64,000 bases of DNA, from NCBI RefSeq assembly GCF_016817355.1, contig NZ_JADOTT010000004.1:248001-312000 (forward strand), written 5' to 3'. Source of the stretch: Maricaulis parjimensis. GTDB lineage: Bacteria; Pseudomonadota; Alphaproteobacteria; Caulobacterales; Maricaulaceae. The notes under the pieces are model-generated. The model made no database searches, was not told the DNA's origin, and was given only the letters and a program-made list of their open reading frames with translations. The translations under genes and the position numbers were made by a program. Within the stretch, counting starts at the first letter, position 1. Every line of letters begins with the position of its first letter. Positions 6,208-64,000 of the stretch are shown piece by piece.

Positions 6208-8916
6208 CTAGCCGCGGATGCGGAGCGTCACGCCATAGGTCTGCGGGTCGCCCGGATAGACATTGTAGGACGTACCCAGATAACCGACCGACGGGAAACC
6301 ACCCTTGGTGTAGTCCTCATCGGTGATGTTGCGGCTCCACAGCTGCAGGGCCCAGCTGTCCGTATCGCTGCCGATCGTGACCGACGCGTTGAACAGGGTG
6401 AAGGCATCCTGCATCGCGAACGGACGCGGATCCTGCGAGGTGGTGTGCAGGAATTCGGAGACATAGGTCGCCTCACCGCGCCAGTCGATTTCCCAGCCAT
6501 TGGACAGGGGCATCGTATAGGTGGCGGTCAGGGCGCCGACGAGTTCCGAATTGCCGCGATCACGACCGGTCAGGTCGTTGAACAGCGCGGTCACACCGGC
6601 ATCATTGGTCCGCTCATTGCCCAGTTCGCAGAGGGCGAAGTTCGGATCACCCGCAGCCCACACGCCAACACCGCCGAACCCGTCCGGGCACGGGGCGAAT
6701 TCATAATCGCCATAGGAGCTGTCGAACAGGTAGGTGAAACCACCCGTGAAGAGCAGATTGTCGACCGGCGACCACTGGCCTTCGAATTCGATACCGGACA
6801 CATCAATCGAACCGGCATTTTCAAGCGCGAAGCCATTACCGACGAAATTATTGGTCTGGAAGTCTTCGATGGTCTGGTTGAAATAGGCCACCGCATAGAC
6901 AAAACGATTATCGAAGAGCGTGCCCTTGGCACCGATTTCGAAGCTCTCGGAAATCTCTTCCTCAAACTCGAACACACCGGTAAAGGCCGCATTGGTCGAG
7001 ACGTTGAAACCGCCCGGCTTGAAGCCCGTTGCGTAGGACGCATACAGGTTCAGCTCGTCCGACACGTCATAGGACAGGATGATATTGCCCGAGAAGTTCG
7101 TGTCGTTCCGCGAGGTCGGGAAGTTGCCCGCATTGACCGGCGGGAAGTTCTGGAAGGCCGTGAAGCCCAGCAACGGGTTCAGCGCCGTACCGGCGAAAAT
7201 GGCCGGGAGCGGGCTGGTCGGGTCGATCGGGGACCCGTCCGGATACAGCGTCAGGCCCTGGCCCAGAAGCAGGGTCGGAACCAGATAGGCACAGGCATCA
7301 CCGCCCACGATCGGGAACAGGCCCGGATCACAGGTCGCCGGCGAAACCAGACGCAGGTCCTGGCCCAGATCCACGAAGGAGAAGGCCGAGAGCGGATCCG
7401 GCTGGTCGATGGAGGTCACCATCTCCTTGCTTTCATCCGAGTAACGGCCACCCACGGTCAGGGTGAACTGGTCCGTGAAGTGGAAGTCGAGCTGACCGAA
7501 GACCGACCAGGCTTCGGTGTCGTACTGGTATTGCTCGGAGATCAGGCCATGGCTGGTCGCCACGAAACCTTCAGCCGGGACACCCGGCAGAGCGGCATTG
7601 CCCGACGGCAGCGGCACGAAATTGCCGACACCGGCCGCCGCATTCATGTTCAGGAAGATCTCGAGCAGGCTCACACCACCCGTACCGGCCGGCAGGCCCA
7701 GGCCTGCAACGATCGGTGCGACCGACGGCGCGGACGCGGCGTCGAAGAAGGTGCGGGCATCGGCGCCGTAGGGCGTCGTGTTCGCGAAGTTCAGATCATT
7801 GCGGTAGTAGAAGGCACCGCCCATCCAGTCCATGAAGTTGTCGCCCGTGGAGGTCACGCGGAACTCCTGGGTGAAGCTTTCATAGCTGTTCATGATGTTG
7901 CGAATGCTGACCAGGTCGAGATCGGAGAAGTCCGCGTCGAAATTCTGGTCTTCATCATAGGTGCGGAAAGCCGTGATCGAGGTCAGGGTGAAGGCATCGA
8001 AATCATGGTTGATTTCAGCCGAGATACCCTGGGTCACGAGCTGCGTGTTCAGGTCGCCGTCAATGGCGATACGGTCGCCACCATCCGGATCGGCCGGAAC
8101 CGCGGTACCGCCCAGGCCCACCAGGGCGCCGAGGTCGATCGGGTCGTAATAGCCAAACGGCGCCGCGCAGCAATTCTCATCGATATTGCCATAGTCGGCG
8201 ATGATGCGGACTTCCGTGGCATCGCCCGGATTCCACAGCAGCTGACCGCGCCAGGAGTGACGGGCGCGATTATTGGCCATGCGGCCGTCTTCGATTTCGA
8301 TATAGCCGTCATTCTGGTGCATCGTGCCGTCAAGACGGATCGCCATCGTGTCATTCAGCGGGCCGGTGACGGAGGCGCGCGCCAGACGCATGCCGTAATT
8401 GCCGGCGCTGATCTCACCGACATAGCCGAATTCGAATTCCGGCTCCTGCGTGATCACGGAGACCACGCCGGCCGGCGTATTGCGGCCGAACAGGGTGGAT
8501 TGCGGGCCACGGATCACTTCGACGCGCTCAACCGACAGGAGGTCGTTGATCGCGGAACCGGAGCGCGGACGGTAGACACCGTCGATGAACACGCCGACAG
8601 ACGGTTCCAGACCCGGGTTGAAGCTCGACGTACCAATGCCGCGCAGATTGAATTCCGTATTGGTGGAGGTCGCGAATTCCGAAACGCGCAGCGAGGGGAC
8701 CAGGGTCTGCAGGTCAGCCGCATCGCGGATCTGGGATTGCTCGATCTGTTCGCCCGTTACAGCAGCCACCGATACCGGGGTGTCCTGCAGGGTCTGCTCA
8801 CGCTTCTGCGCCGTCACGGTGATGACGTCGACTTGCGCCATTGCACTGGTGGCCCCGATAAGACCAGCCAGAATTGCGGTCGTACCCAGCACGGCCGCCT
8901 TGTTGAATTTACTCAT
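6208..8916 (-). CDS. TonB-dependent outer-membrane receptor
   Basis: Outer-membrane beta-barrel that imports a ligand using TonB energy. The 902-residue protein has a signal peptide ending at ATSAMAQ, a TonB box (DVITVTAQKRE) just after the cleavage site, a plug domain with LQTLVPSLRV and VERVEVIRGPQSTLFGRN, and a long barrel. ATG 8916 (MSKFNKA) has GGGGAGAAA upstream; the 23-codon extension to 8985 is not needed. Receptors of this style in marine alphaproteobacteria are often linked to catabolic islands rather than to siderophores. Neighbouring lipid and alcohol enzymes support an organic substrate here, but the ligand is unknown. Confidence 0.93.
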   Translation of the reverse strand: MSKFNKAAVLGTTAILAGLIGATSAMAQVDVITVTAQKREQTLQDTPVSVAAVTGEQIEQSQIRDAADLQTLVPSLRVSEFATSTNTEFNLRGIGTSSFNPGLEPSVGVFIDGVYRPRSGSAINDLLSVERVEVIRGPQSTLFGRNTPAGVVSVITQEPEFEFGYVGEISAGNYGMRLARASVTGPLNDTMAIRLDGTMHQNDGYIEIEDGRMANNRARHSWRGQLLWNPGDATEVRIIADYGNIDENCCAAPFGYYDPIDLGALVGLGGTAVPADPDGGDRIAIDGDLNTQLVTQGISAEINHDFDAFTLTSITAFRTYDEDQNFDADFSDLDLVSIRNIMNSYESFTQEFRVTSTGDNFMDWMGGAFYYRNDLNFANTTPYGADARTFFDAASAPSVAPIVAGLGLPAGTGGVSLLEIFLNMNAAAGVGNFVPLPSGNAALPGVPAEGFVATSHGLISEQYQYDTEAWSVFGQLDFHFTDQFTLTVGGRYSDESKEMVTSIDQPDPLSAFSFVDLGQDLRLVSPATCDPGLFPIVGGDACAYLVPTLLLGQGLTLYPDGSPIDPTSPLPAIFAGTALNPLLGFTAFQNFPPVNAGNFPTSRNDTNFSGNIILSYDVSDELNLYASYATGFKPGGFNVSTNAAFTGVFEFEEEISESFEIGAKGTLFDNRFVYAVAYFNQTIEDFQTNNFVGNGFALENAGSIDVSGIEFEGQWSPVDNLLFTGGFTYLFDSSYGDYEFAPCPDGFGGVGVWAAGDPNFALCELGNERTNDAGVTALFNDLTGRDRGNSELVGALTATYTMPLSNGWEIDWRGEATYVSEFLHTTSQDPRPFAMQDAFTLFNASVTIGSDTDSWALQLWSRNITDEDYTKGGFPSVGYLGTSYNVYPGDPQTYGVTLRIRG

Positions 8917-60144: not shown

Positions 60145-61035
60145 ATGGGCATCAAGCGTCGCACGCGTATCTGGACCACTGTCGGCACAGCCGCTCTGGT
60201 GGGCGGACTGGCCGCCTGCAGCGATCCGGCCGGTGAAGTCGGCGAGTCTGGCGCGCACAACCCTGCCACCTCCGAACACGCACAAAACGGCTCCTTCGAG
60301 GCCCCGTCCACGCCGGCCTTCTCCGAAGGTGAAGGCGAGAGCGGCGAAGGCGAAGGCGGCGGTGGCGGCGGTGAATTCGGCATTGACCCCGTCGCGGCTG
60401 AAAACGACCCCGTGGTCTATGGCATCGCCATTGAAGTGATGCGGGCGCACTATCTGGCCGGTATCGACGCCTTTCAGGCGGGTGACCGAACGGCGGGTGC
60501 TGAAATGTTCGCCCACCCGATTTCCGAGATCTACATCGATTTCGAACCGGTTCTGGAAGCGCTGGGCTCACCGCTCTTCGGCGAAACCATGACGGCTGCA
60601 GCTGTGGCGCCCTATAGCGGTGAGAGCGATGAAGAGATCGCCGCAAAGGTCGAAGCCGTGATCACCGCGCTCGACGACGCTGAAGCCTATGCCCCGCAGA
60701 ACGACGCGAGCGCCGGTGCCGTCCAGGCACGCATCCTGGCCGACCTGGTCGAACGCGCCGCCCTGCAATACCGTCTCGTGGCCTCCACACCGGATGCGGG
60801 TGAGGCCTATCTGGATGGATATGGCTTTACCAAGGGCGCCGAACGCTATGCCGACCGCCACATGAACACTATCGCACTGGCCGACCCGACGGCCGCGGCC
60901 GGCTTGGCAAGCGCGATCGCCTTGTTGCAGACCGCTTTCCCGACGCCTCTGCGTCCTGAGACGCTGTCCGCCGATGCCGATATGATCGTGGCGGCATCCG
61001 ATACCCTGAAAGCGGCGCTGCCGGCGCTCGACTGA
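60145..61035 (+). CDS. Lipoprotein of unknown function, possible iron-related
   Basis: Not firmly recognised. A 296-residue lipoprotein (lipobox LAAC) with a low-complexity Glu/Gly linker (residues about 55-78), then an all-helical domain. EMFAHPISEIYIDF near residue 115 recalls, but does not match, the GxHxxE motif of imelysins. AGGGGAAG lies before ATG 60145. Divergence from the dioxygenase with a shared Fur-like box suggests an iron or metal role; this is inference. Confidence 0.75.
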   Translation: MGIKRRTRIWTTVGTAALVGGLAACSDPAGEVGESGAHNPATSEHAQNGSFEAPSTPAFSEGEGESGEGEGGGGGGEFGIDPVAAENDPVVYGIAIEVMRAHYLAGIDAFQAGDRTAGAEMFAHPISEIYIDFEPVLEALGSPLFGETMTAAAVAPYSGESDEEIAAKVEAVITALDDAEAYAPQNDASAGAVQARILADLVERAALQYRLVASTPDAGEAYLDGYGFTKGAERYADRHMNTIALADPTAAAGLASAIALLQTAFPTPLRPETLSADADMIVAASDTLKAALPALD

Positions 61036-61271: not shown

Positions 61272-61655
61272 ATGGACTATTTCGACATCAATAACTTCAT
61301 GCCCCATGGCATGTGTTATCTCTGGCGCCCCGAGCTTGTCGGCATGCATGTCATCGCCGATCTGGCCATCGCCCTCGCTTATTTTTCCATCCCGATCACG
61401 ATCCTGGTCTTTCTGCGCCGTCTCGACCGGCCGGTGCCCTTTCGCTGGGCATTCATCATGTTCGGAATTTTCATTCTCTTCTGCGGCATCAATCACGTCA
61501 TGAATATCGTCGTGCTCTGGCACCCGCTCTACTATGTCGAAGGGATACTGAAACTGATGACGGCCGCTGCCTCCGTTGCCACCGCAGTCCTCATGCTGCC
61601 GCTTGTGCCGGTCCTGATAGACCGGTTCACCCGCATCCGTGACACGGCGGACTAA
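61272..61655 (+). CDS. Stand-alone ethylene-binding-type (ETR1-like) three-helix membrane domain
   Basis: Protein of 127 residues made of three membrane helices (about 25-48, 58-82, 91-113). It keeps every residue known to matter for copper and ethylene binding in plant ETR1, at the same spacing: Asp30, Tyr37, Ile40, Pro41, Ile68, Cys71 and His75 (ETR1 Asp25, Tyr32, Ile35, Pro36, Ile62, Cys65, His69). ALAYFSIP and CGINH are the clearest landmarks. The N-terminal PHGMCYLW replaces the plant cysteines. There is no kinase part, but a histidine kinase gene starts 6 bp downstream. GGGGGG precedes the ATG. Copper or a small olefin as ligand is inference. Confidence 0.88.
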   Translation: MDYFDINNFMPHGMCYLWRPELVGMHVIADLAIALAYFSIPITILVFLRRLDRPVPFRWAFIMFGIFILFCGINHVMNIVVLWHPLYYVEGILKLMTAAASVATAVLMLPLVPVLIDRFTRIRDTAD

Positions 61656-61661
61656 GGCCCG

Positions 61662-63341
61662 ATGACCCAGCAGGCGCCAGGAAAGGATCCGGAAGTCTCG
61701 CCGCATCAGCGCTATGAGACGCTGACCGGCTTGCTGGATGCCTACCGCACGCCTGTAACCATCATCCTGTTCGGTCTCATCGTGTCACTGGCCCTGTTCT
61801 TCGCGACCCTGGTCAATCAAAGCCGCGCGCAGGAACGCGAATTCCGGGCGGCCGCTGAAGGGCTCAGCCGGGAATTCGAATCCGAACTGAACCACATGGA
61901 AGTTCAATTGAACGCCTATGCCCGTGCCCTGGACGCTGGTCTCAGTGCCGAGGTAGTTCAATCCGTCTTCGCCTCATCCAGTACCGAGGGCTTGCCACAA
62001 CTTGGCCATCTACCATCGCCAAGCGATACCCGACGGCCCCTCACCGGCGTGCAGGATGAGATCGCCCATCAGATTGACCTCACTCTGTCTTCCTCCGCCC
62101 TGCCGCCTGCACCGCCCGGTGAACACAGGCTGATCGCCTTGCCGAATGACGGTGTGTCGAGCCTTCGTATTGCGCTGGTGCGCCACAGACCGGAAAGCCT
62201 GCCATCGCGCATTTACGCTGCGGCTCCCATGGAAGACCTGTTGCCGCCCGACACCAGCCCATCGCCCATCCTGTGGGTCATCGCCAGCATGCCGGGCGAT
62301 GATCCAGTTGTCGTGACCACCGGCGGTTCGGATGCTGTGCCCGAAAACTTGCCGCCTGTGAACGAGCTGCTGCGTTCTGCGCCCTTCCGCGTCGGCTGGA
62401 CCGGGCCAAACGCCTTCGAAGGTTTGGAACTCTCTCTCATTCCGAGGCGTTCTTTCCTCCTGAGCATCGGTCCTCTGCCCTGGCTGGTCCTGGCTTTTTC
62501 CATGTTCGCCACGATGACACTGGGCGCGCTGGCGCTGAAAGATGCCCGCCGCGCTGTGGACATCCGCATCGAGGTGGCGCGCAAGACGATCGAGTTGAAG
62601 GAGAGCCACGCCATTATCGAGGCCAAGAATCATGACCTCGCCCGCTTCGCCTCACATGCCTCCCATGATCTTCAGGCGCCCTTGCGTATTATGCAGGGCA
62701 TGTCAGCCCTGCTCGTGCAACGGCATGCCGAGCTGGACGACCGAAGCCAGGACATGCTGGCGCGGATCAATCGGGGGGCCGAACGCGCCCAGCGCCTGGT
62801 TCAGGACCTGCTGTCCTACACAAAGGCCGATGCCGCCCGGCTCAATCCGGAGACTCTGGCCCCACAGGATCTGACCCAGGAAATCGAGGAATTGCTGGAA
62901 GCCCCGATTCAGGAAAGCGGTGCCAGGCTGGAATGGGATTTCGACGGTCCCGTCCAGGCCGACCGTTTTCTCTTGACCCGAGCCCTCCAGAACCTTGTTT
63001 CAAACGGTCTCAAATACCGGGGCGATGCCATGCCCCATATCCGCATTTCCAGCCGCCAATCAGAACACGGTTGCACGCTCTGCGTGGAGGATAACGGGAT
63101 CGGCATCGAGCCGGAGCATTTCGGCCGTATCTTCGAGGTCTTCGAACGCTTGCACACCGCCGAAAAATACGAGGGCTCGGGCATCGGCCTTGCCCTGTGC
63201 CGCCGCGCCGCGGATTTGCATGGCGGACGGATATGGGTCGAGTCCGAACCGGGACTGGGCAGCCGCTTTTATCTGTTTATCCCGCAAACTGCCGCCGATA
63301 CGCCCGGGGACGCGCAACGCATGGCGTCCAATGATCATTGA
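61662..63341 (+). CDS. Sensor histidine kinase
   Basis: Membrane histidine kinase of 559 residues. Helix 1 (about 32-52) and helix 2 (about 270-292) bracket a periplasmic domain of roughly 215 residues. A coil leads to the dimerisation domain with the phospho-acceptor His in SHASHDLQAPLR (phytochrome/NtrY-like HisKA style), then the ATP domain: LVSNGLKYRG (N box), DNGIGIEP (G1) and YEGSGIGLAL (G2). No receiver domain is fused and no response regulator follows. It is coupled to the ethylene-type domain 6 bp upstream, and the pair may form one receptor. Confidence 0.92.
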   Translation: MTQQAPGKDPEVSPHQRYETLTGLLDAYRTPVTIILFGLIVSLALFFATLVNQSRAQEREFRAAAEGLSREFESELNHMEVQLNAYARALDAGLSAEVVQSVFASSSTEGLPQLGHLPSPSDTRRPLTGVQDEIAHQIDLTLSSSALPPAPPGEHRLIALPNDGVSSLRIALVRHRPESLPSRIYAAAPMEDLLPPDTSPSPILWVIASMPGDDPVVVTTGGSDAVPENLPPVNELLRSAPFRVGWTGPNAFEGLELSLIPRRSFLLSIGPLPWLVLAFSMFATMTLGALALKDARRAVDIRIEVARKTIELKESHAIIEAKNHDLARFASHASHDLQAPLRIMQGMSALLVQRHAELDDRSQDMLARINRGAERAQRLVQDLLSYTKADAARLNPETLAPQDLTQEIEELLEAPIQESGARLEWDFDGPVQADRFLLTRALQNLVSNGLKYRGDAMPHIRISSRQSEHGCTLCVEDNGIGIEPEHFGRIFEVFERLHTAEKYEGSGIGLALCRRAADLHGGRIWVESEPGLGSRFYLFIPQTAADTPGDAQRMASNDH

Positions 63342-63408: not shown

Positions 63409-64000
63409 ATGTCCGACTATCTGATCGCTGCGCTCTACAAATTCACGCCCCTCAAAGCCGATGCCGATTTGCAGGCGCGCATTCATGATGTCTGCGCCGA
63501 GAACCAAGTCGCCGGCACGCTCTTGCTGGCGCCCGAGGGGCTCAATGGCACGATTGCCGGACCGGAAACGGGCCTGCGCACAGTCCTCGAATTTCTCCGC
63601 GGCCTGCCCGGCTGTAGGGACCTGGAACACAAGGAGAGCCGGTCCGAAGACCAGCCCTTCCTCCGACTGAAGGTCCGGCTCAAGCGGGAAATCGTCACCA
63701 TGGGTGTTCCCGGCATCGATCCGAACGAGACCGTCGGCACCTATGTCGAACCGGAGGACTGGAACGACCTCATCCAGGCGCCGGATGTCGTCACCATCGA
63801 TACGCGCAATGATTATGAAGTGCGCATCGGCCAATTCGCCGGAGCTGTCGATCCGCACACCACGACCTTCCGGGAATTCCCCGACTGGTTCCGGCGCTTC
63901 CGGGAAACGCGTCCCAATGCCCGGATCGCTATGTATTGCACGGGCGGGATTCGGTGCGAGAAGGCCACGGCCTTTGTGAAGCAGGAAGGCATCGAGGATG
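63409..64000 (+). CDS. trhO: tRNA uridine 5-oxyacetate hydroxylase TrhO / rhodanese-like (partial)
   Basis: The first 197 codons of a TrhO (YceA/UPF0176) protein, which hydroxylates U34 in certain tRNAs. The N-terminal ferredoxin-like part has [12 protein letters not shown] near residue 42 and the rhodanese domain [17 protein letters not shown] near 127, with the active-site Cys in [12 protein letters not shown] near 180. The rest (the family is about 310 residues) is beyond the window. ATG 63409 ([12 protein letters not shown]) fits the family start; no clear ribosome site is seen. Confidence 0.92.

Follow-up and report, generated by a model that had tools for sequence, protein, structure and literature searches.

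In the ethylene-receptor family seven residues are required, Cu(I) is held by Cys65 and His69, and ethylene-binding assays have employed domains of 130 residues, according to the available sections of PMC11819568, PMC6682694, PMC6944256, PMC6586836 and PMC7700396. The plant receptors ETR1 and ERS are single polypeptides in which this domain is linked to a GAF domain and a transmitter (available sections of PMC6586836). Bacterial ETR1-type domains are represented by SynEtr1 of Synechocystis and AzoEtr1 of A. brasilense; residues 1-130 of each have served as GST fusions in ethylene-binding assays (PMC11819568 and PMC6682694, as far as their available sections go), those of AzoEtr1 in the yeast Pichia pastoris (PMC11819568). 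As the AzoEtr1 fragment is usable in such assays, the isolated domain is assayable. Both bacterial proteins are described as fused to kinases. How the three-helix domain passes ethylene binding on to the kinase is in large part an open question. Since the described receptors, in the accounts available, have both parts in one chain, the contact between them cannot be taken apart. Separate membrane or membrane-anchored proteins that control a histidine kinase are known from UhpC/UhpB and WalK/YycHI. Their sensor proteins belong to unrelated families, and we know of no system of this type with an ethylene-receptor domain.

Here we analyse a locus of Maricaulis parjimensis in which an ETR1-type domain and a histidine kinase are encoded by two adjacent genes (positions 61272-63341 of a 64-kb stretch of the genome, referred to as the window). 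In the sections of the openly licensed literature available to us, no description was found in which the domain is separate and accompanied by a partner kinase; most subscription papers lie outside that scope.

The separate domain and its partner kinase

The first gene (61272-61655, plus strand) encodes a protein of 127 amino acids, of which residues 22-116 match the Pfam family ETR1_N (PF25487) with 118.1 bits (E 2e-34, cut-off 27), as the original prediction of an ethylene-receptor N-terminal domain had anticipated. There is little beyond this domain. Hydropathy analysis indicates three membrane helices at about residues 20-51, 53-86 and 89-120, and an AlphaFold model of medium confidence (mean pLDDT 73.3) places helices at 23-50, 55-83, 87-108 and 111-123, so that both methods support the three transmembrane helices that characterise ETR1_N. 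An alignment revealed that all seven ETR1 binding residues are retained, i.e. Asp30, Tyr37, Ile40, Pro41, Ile68, Cys71 and His75. The small protein thus shares with Arabidopsis ETR1/ERS the three-helix N-terminal domain, the seven residues and the tie to a histidine-kinase module. We take these seven, with Asp25, Cys65 and His69 of ETR1 among them, to be the full list needed for binding. Alignment with the A. brasilense domain assigns the codon of Asp30 (61359-61361, plus strand) as the counterpart of ETR1 Asp25. Cys71 to His75 (61482-61496, plus strand) bear the predicted Cu(I) ligands, which correspond to Cys65 and His69 of ETR1 (ligand roles from the available sections of PMC11819568 and PMC6586836). 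In helix 3, Lys94 aligns with Lys91, the output lysine of ETR1.

The residue list of the original prediction thus held, whereas the claim of a spacing identical to that of ETR1 was off by one. The distance from Asp30 to Cys71 is 41 residues, compared with 40 from Asp25 to Cys65 in AtETR1 (numbering from the available sections of PMC11819568). The stretch from Ile40 to Ile68 measures 28 residues; this length recurs in 14 of the 15 separate domains that we describe below, whereas 61 of 66 other aligned domains, including that of A. brasilense, have 27.

A search of the genome with the small protein found it as a single copy at 61272-61655. Its closest named relatives are six Maricaulis records, the best being M. 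alexandrii with 90% identity over the best segment. A PDB sequence search gave no match up to E 1, and Foldseek with the model returned nothing at E <= 0.001 (best E 1.4).

The second gene (61662-63341, plus strand; 559 amino acids) begins after a gap of 6 bp, in agreement with the predicted gene positions. Its product is a sensor histidine kinase, as both HisKA (47.4 bits; residues 326-391, 62637-62834, plus strand), the dimerisation and phospho-acceptor domain, and the catalytic domain HATPase_c (95 bits; residues 434-543, 62961-63290, plus strand) exceed their Pfam cut-offs. Hydropathy predicts membrane regions at about residues 23-54 and 264-293 with about 210 residues between them, which bears out the idea of a separate kinase with its own periplasmic domain. 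The pair differs from the plant receptors not only in the separate domain protein and the additional residue between Asp and Cys, but also in a kinase that brings two helices and a periplasmic domain of its own. The first transmembrane region (TM1, about residues 27-54; 61740-61823, plus strand) carries the sequence common to the partner kinases discussed below. The periplasmic domain (61824-62465, plus strand) is fast diverging; in the AlphaFold model of the kinase, which is of medium confidence (mean pLDDT 67.4), its secondary structure is mixed alpha/beta.

With TM1, periplasmic domain, TM2 and transmitter, the kinase has the layout of the CHASE-domain histidine kinases of the cytokinin-receptor type. 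However, its periplasmic domain has no Pfam match, and the partner kinases remain below the cut-offs for CHASE (best 14.3 of 25 bits, L093) and dCache_1 (best 27 of 45 bits, L080), so that an assignment to CHASE or Cache was discarded. PDB sequence searches with the sensor region of the window kinase gave no match, and the A3 query gave three (best E 0.082), none of them credible. The best 50 of 513 Foldseek rows for the kinase model resemble kinase cores or whole kinases. A WalK-YycH model tops the list with a TM-score of 0.28; hence there is no structural evidence for that likeness.

Distribution and relationships of the pair

Among 19 Maricaulis genomes, the same eight, Maricaulis maris DSM 4734 (L007) among them, have both the domain (above cut-off) and the kinase sensor region (299-residue query), and the other 11 have neither. 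In six other Maricaulis the small protein is 83-90% identical to that of the window, with dN/dS values of 0.05-0.11 in six comparisons (dS is near 1 in several), which argues that the small gene is more than a chance reading frame. For the kinase, identity in these six genomes is 45-65%, and the Maricaulis kinase sensor regions are 34-58% identical to that of the window. Upstream lies a genus-conserved gene (60145-61035, plus strand), found in 16 of the 19 genomes, in two of these partially or weakly; downstream is trhO (63409-64000, plus strand; NCBIfam TrhO 244.3 bits), which is cut by the end of the window. These genes form the left and right edges of empty sites in three genomes that lack the pair (G012, G005 and G015), where the upstream gene is directly followed by trhO at distances of 88, 98 and 143 bp. 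Both genes of the pair therefore come or go together. In three further Maricaulis genomes (G001, G003 and G004) the upstream gene is present without TrhO within 1.5 kb. Taken together, it is well supported that the free-standing ETR1-type domain and the separate kinase are a real, conserved unit.

Two side observations were made in the genus. The product of the upstream gene starts like a lipoprotein, contains an acidic stretch rich in glycine and matches no Pfam or NCBIfam family. Four loci (L017, L018, L019 and L020 in G008, G003, G006 and G009) gave sub-cut-off ETR1_N matches of 21-23 bits, which fall on a different multi-helix Maricaulis membrane protein and are probably unrelated.

To place the pair in a wider context, we surveyed Pseudomonadota and plasmids (19 plasmid relatives, two of them used as reference domains). 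Domains are termed fused or other where the open frame extends well past the domain; the output domain of such a frame was checked with Pfam in L082 only, where it is a kinase. A class-wide sample of 385 genomes contains ETR1_N domains in 28, and in three of these, the genome of the window, G172 and G275, a separate domain lies beside a two-helix kinase. The other places are in frames of at least 325 residues, barring three odd cases in G100, G044 and G233. G233 has a second copy besides a frame of 101 residues, in which a stop interrupts the match close to the end of a contig. In a phylum-wide sample (398 genomes, 29 with matches) the only short frame is the window's own, besides a 48-residue fragment. 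In the order of G275 (114 genomes), matches occur in nine genomes, of which six carry separate domains; the kinase sensor region turned up in those six plus one partial match of 18.9 bits. In the window's family (137 genomes), 24 genomes score above the cut-off; eight are Maricaulis, and the other 16 have the domain in open frames of at least 371 residues.

In total, the pair is present at 15 loci in three lineages, i.e. Maricaulis, the second alphaproteobacterial order with six genomes, and G172. Separate genes were found at all 15 loci, and at none of them is the domain fused to a histidine kinase or similar output in one chain. Hydropathy profiles indicate three membrane regions in every small protein and two main ones in every kinase, with a weak extra peak in the kinases of L005 and L077. 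The two reading frames, 6 bp apart in the window, overlap in L005, L079, L080, L094 and L095.

Some single loci deserve mention. G867 has both a long-frame domain (L098:6466-8109) and a separate domain (L093:907-1305). In G044 a divergent ETR1_N-like protein (L081:6296-6739, 47.8 bits) overlaps the frame of a CHASE3 histidine kinase (6424-8175) and is perhaps a second, independent two-gene version. On plasmid p1 of A. brasilense MTCC4038 (L110:4001-4330) the domain lies in a frame of 211 residues, whereas AzoEtr1 is described as a protein of 525 amino acids; the short frame is either a sequencing error or a real break.

It was essential to consider that an ordinary fused kinase might have been split by a frameshift or stop codon. 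Such a case seems to exist in G100: on the minus strand of L078, 18 bases and a stop separate an ETR1_N domain from a kinase half in the same frame, and a receiver-like gene comes next. This locus has the look of a fused receptor that was split recently. However, its kinase half starts without a membrane helix and its domain sits among the other domains in the tree described below, whereas the window kinase has two membrane regions and a periplasmic domain of its own in an arrangement shared by 15 loci in three lineages. The conservation in eight Maricaulis genomes, the paired presence and absence, the empty sites and the recurrence in other lineages exclude a frameshift or split at this locus, the outcome that would have undone the original prediction, and we assign this explanation a negligible probability.

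We compared 81 domains in a tree, of which 15 are separate. The 66 others include the L078 domain with its in-frame stop and that of A. brasilense, whose frame is interrupted 77 residues past the domain; SynEtr1 is not among the rows. All separate domains lie on one side of a branch, apart from A. brasilense and the 65 others, with support values of 100/98 and in 100% of 200 bootstrap trees. The tree is unrooted. For this first tree, based on 129 columns, the program notes an unsettled bootstrap, and the long branches of L096 and L097 meet. When 92 core columns were used without L096 and L097, the split was recovered at 85/65 and in 86% of bootstrap trees. Therefore, part of the first support came from the domain flanks or from the two long branches. 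The domains were excised with a profile built from the separate domains, which is a possible source of bias. The rows come from survey places with a retrieved locus and do not include loci that duplicate a place already represented, the sub-cut-off L017-L020, the weak L045, L046 and L073, the truncated L083, and L047, L074 and L075, which the excising profile missed. A local origin of the Maricaulis domains from the long-frame receptors of the same family is not supported, because those family members that are in the tree fall among the other domains and not with the Maricaulis separate ones.

A common first membrane helix in the partner kinases

When the eight Maricaulis partner kinases are compared, 24 of 45 positions are invariant in the TM1 region (residues 18-62), as opposed to 17 of 206 in the periplasmic part and 9 of 24 in TM2; the corresponding figures are 42 of 66 for HisKA and 46 of 110 for HATPase_c. 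A profile of TM1 for which only the seven non-Maricaulis partners were used recognises all eight Maricaulis partners (E 3e-6 to 2e-3). Among frames of at least 80 residues in the loci compared, it matches nothing but partner kinases up to E 1, and it finds none of 29 other kinase loci of the window's genome with 1.5-kb flanks (out of 31 other HisKA places in that genome). The reverse profile, built from Maricaulis alone, detects four of the seven distant partners, one of them at E 0.06. In profile comparisons between Maricaulis and six of the non-Maricaulis partners (L079 left out), the complete sensor halves reach a probability of 95.8% (E 7e-9), whereas the periplasmic parts alone are barely alignable (hhalign probability 5.7%, L079 again left out). 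For the most part, the common sequence of the partners therefore lies in the membrane.

Of the 385 genomes in the class sample, the window's genome, G172 and G275 are the only ones in which a partner-sensor profile scores above 300 bits; their sequences are in the query by construction. The next best match, at 37.8 bits, covers part of the model, and partial matches of this kind occur in ten genomes; a full-length sensor of the partner type was thus found in none of the sampled genomes outside the three with separate domains. Three of the partial matches were inspected, of which one, L178 (23 bits with the partner-sensor profile), is a clear CHASE kinase whose CHASE domain scores 152 bits, and two have no CHASE match. 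These similarities give a faint hint that the partner kinases may be distantly linked to CHASE-type kinases.

The common TM1 also bears on the possibility that two unrelated genes merely share an operon and that the small protein works with something else. The rapid divergence of the kinase sensor region in Maricaulis would suit such an arrangement. However, paired presence and absence in two groups, empty sites that lack the genes as a unit, and a TM1 sequence held in common by the partners speak against it and render it quite improbable.

Copper ligands, neighbouring genes and a proposed two-subunit receptor

At eight aligned positions, the seven binding residues and the lysine read DYIPICHK in 13 of the 15 separate domains. 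The two exceptions, L096 (7728-8249, minus strand) with EYVPIGHK and L097 (7548-7994) with GIMALSEK, have lost copper-site residues according to the alignment, and both still directly precede a two-helix kinase of the same type. As the pair is kept despite this loss, ligand sensing is not its sole possible role. The two loci argue for a unit whose worth may not rest on the ligand alone, and they are the main fact opposing a pure ethylene reading.

All seven pairs outside Maricaulis are followed by a receiver gene (Pfam Response_reg). In the six loci of G275's order (L080, L093, L094, L095, L096 and L097) the domain gene directly adjoins the kinase gene or overlaps with it, and the order is the same throughout: kinase, single-domain receiver, receiver-plus-kinase gene (Pfam); in L095 the profile detects two receivers. 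The G172 locus (L079) has the domain, kinase and receiver genes in this order. In the window and the seven other Maricaulis loci the receiver profile found nothing.

In three of the 15 pairs a gene of the SCO1/SenC copper-chaperone type lies directly upstream of the domain gene (L080:6788-7351, 139.9 bits; L094:4399-5007, 148.0 bits; L095:6749-7336, 134.7 bits), a hint of dedicated copper delivery. A profile built from these three found no SCO1 in the whole 64-kb window or in the other eleven pair loci; the window, the seven other Maricaulis loci, L079 and L093, in none of which SCO1 was found, all have intact ligands. In the wider locus set, the profile detected two further places, one at a remote position of the 16-kb L078 region, the other in the flank of L141, another kinase of the window's genome. 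None was found beside long-frame domains, most of which were covered with flanks of 1.5 kb. With three of 15 pairs, a copper chaperone as a general partner was dismissed.

These observations raise the question whether the small subunit senses copper, or the copper redox state, and reports this rather than ethylene to the kinase. The SCO1 genes upstream of three pairs and the copper ligands conserved in 13 of 15 domains would fit this explanation, as would the fact that Maricaulis and the term ethylene receptor were not found together in the openly licensed papers available to us. Yet SCO1 accompanies 3/15 pairs only, all seven ethylene-binding residues are kept beyond the copper ligands, and known bacterial relatives bind ethylene (available sections of PMC11819568 and PMC6682694). 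We thus consider copper as the signal possible, but rather unlikely.

The small protein could also serve the kinase chiefly in structure or assembly, with ligand binding secondary or lost. L096 and L097, which keep the pair after the loss of copper-site residues, point in this direction, and so does TM1 as the best-conserved part of the kinase sensor half in Maricaulis. On the other hand, all eight positions are retained in 13 of 15 domains, and an identity of 83-90% with a dN/dS of 0.05-0.11 seems to exceed the needs of a mere scaffold. This explanation appears unlikely.

We favour, with a probability of about 60%, the reading that the two genes encode one receptor, in which a copper-dependent olefin-binding membrane subunit would control its partner kinase via membrane contacts. 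Copper and ethylene binding, the physical interaction of the two proteins and the direction of control are what we infer from the sequences. The 127-residue subunit would reside in the membrane, most likely as a dimer, with Cys71 and His75 holding Cu(I), and would bind ethylene or a similar small olefin like other ETR1-type domains. The kinase is a separate two-helix membrane protein. Ligand binding may alter the contact of the three-helix subunit with the membrane helices of the kinase, TM1 above all, and the altered contact would set kinase activity, with the periplasmic domain probably as a second input. A response regulator would then receive the signal; its gene is adjacent in the distant relatives and presumably lies elsewhere in the genome in Maricaulis.

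In a broader sense, we see an even chance that the pairs constitute a separate lineage of gas receptors. Here, a detachable ethylene-binding subunit would dock on the helices of a kinase that integrates the olefin (or copper) signal with a periplasmic one, and members with a decayed copper site may act as pure membrane co-sensors.

The recurrence of the pair in distant relatives suggests a two-protein version of a receptor that is usually made as one protein. In such a natural version, one could purify the sensor, exchange it and titrate it independently of the kinase, and the natural variants without copper ligands would provide ready-made controls. If the pair is indeed a two-protein version of the receptor, it would suggest that ethylene or copper serves marine alphaproteobacteria as a signal.
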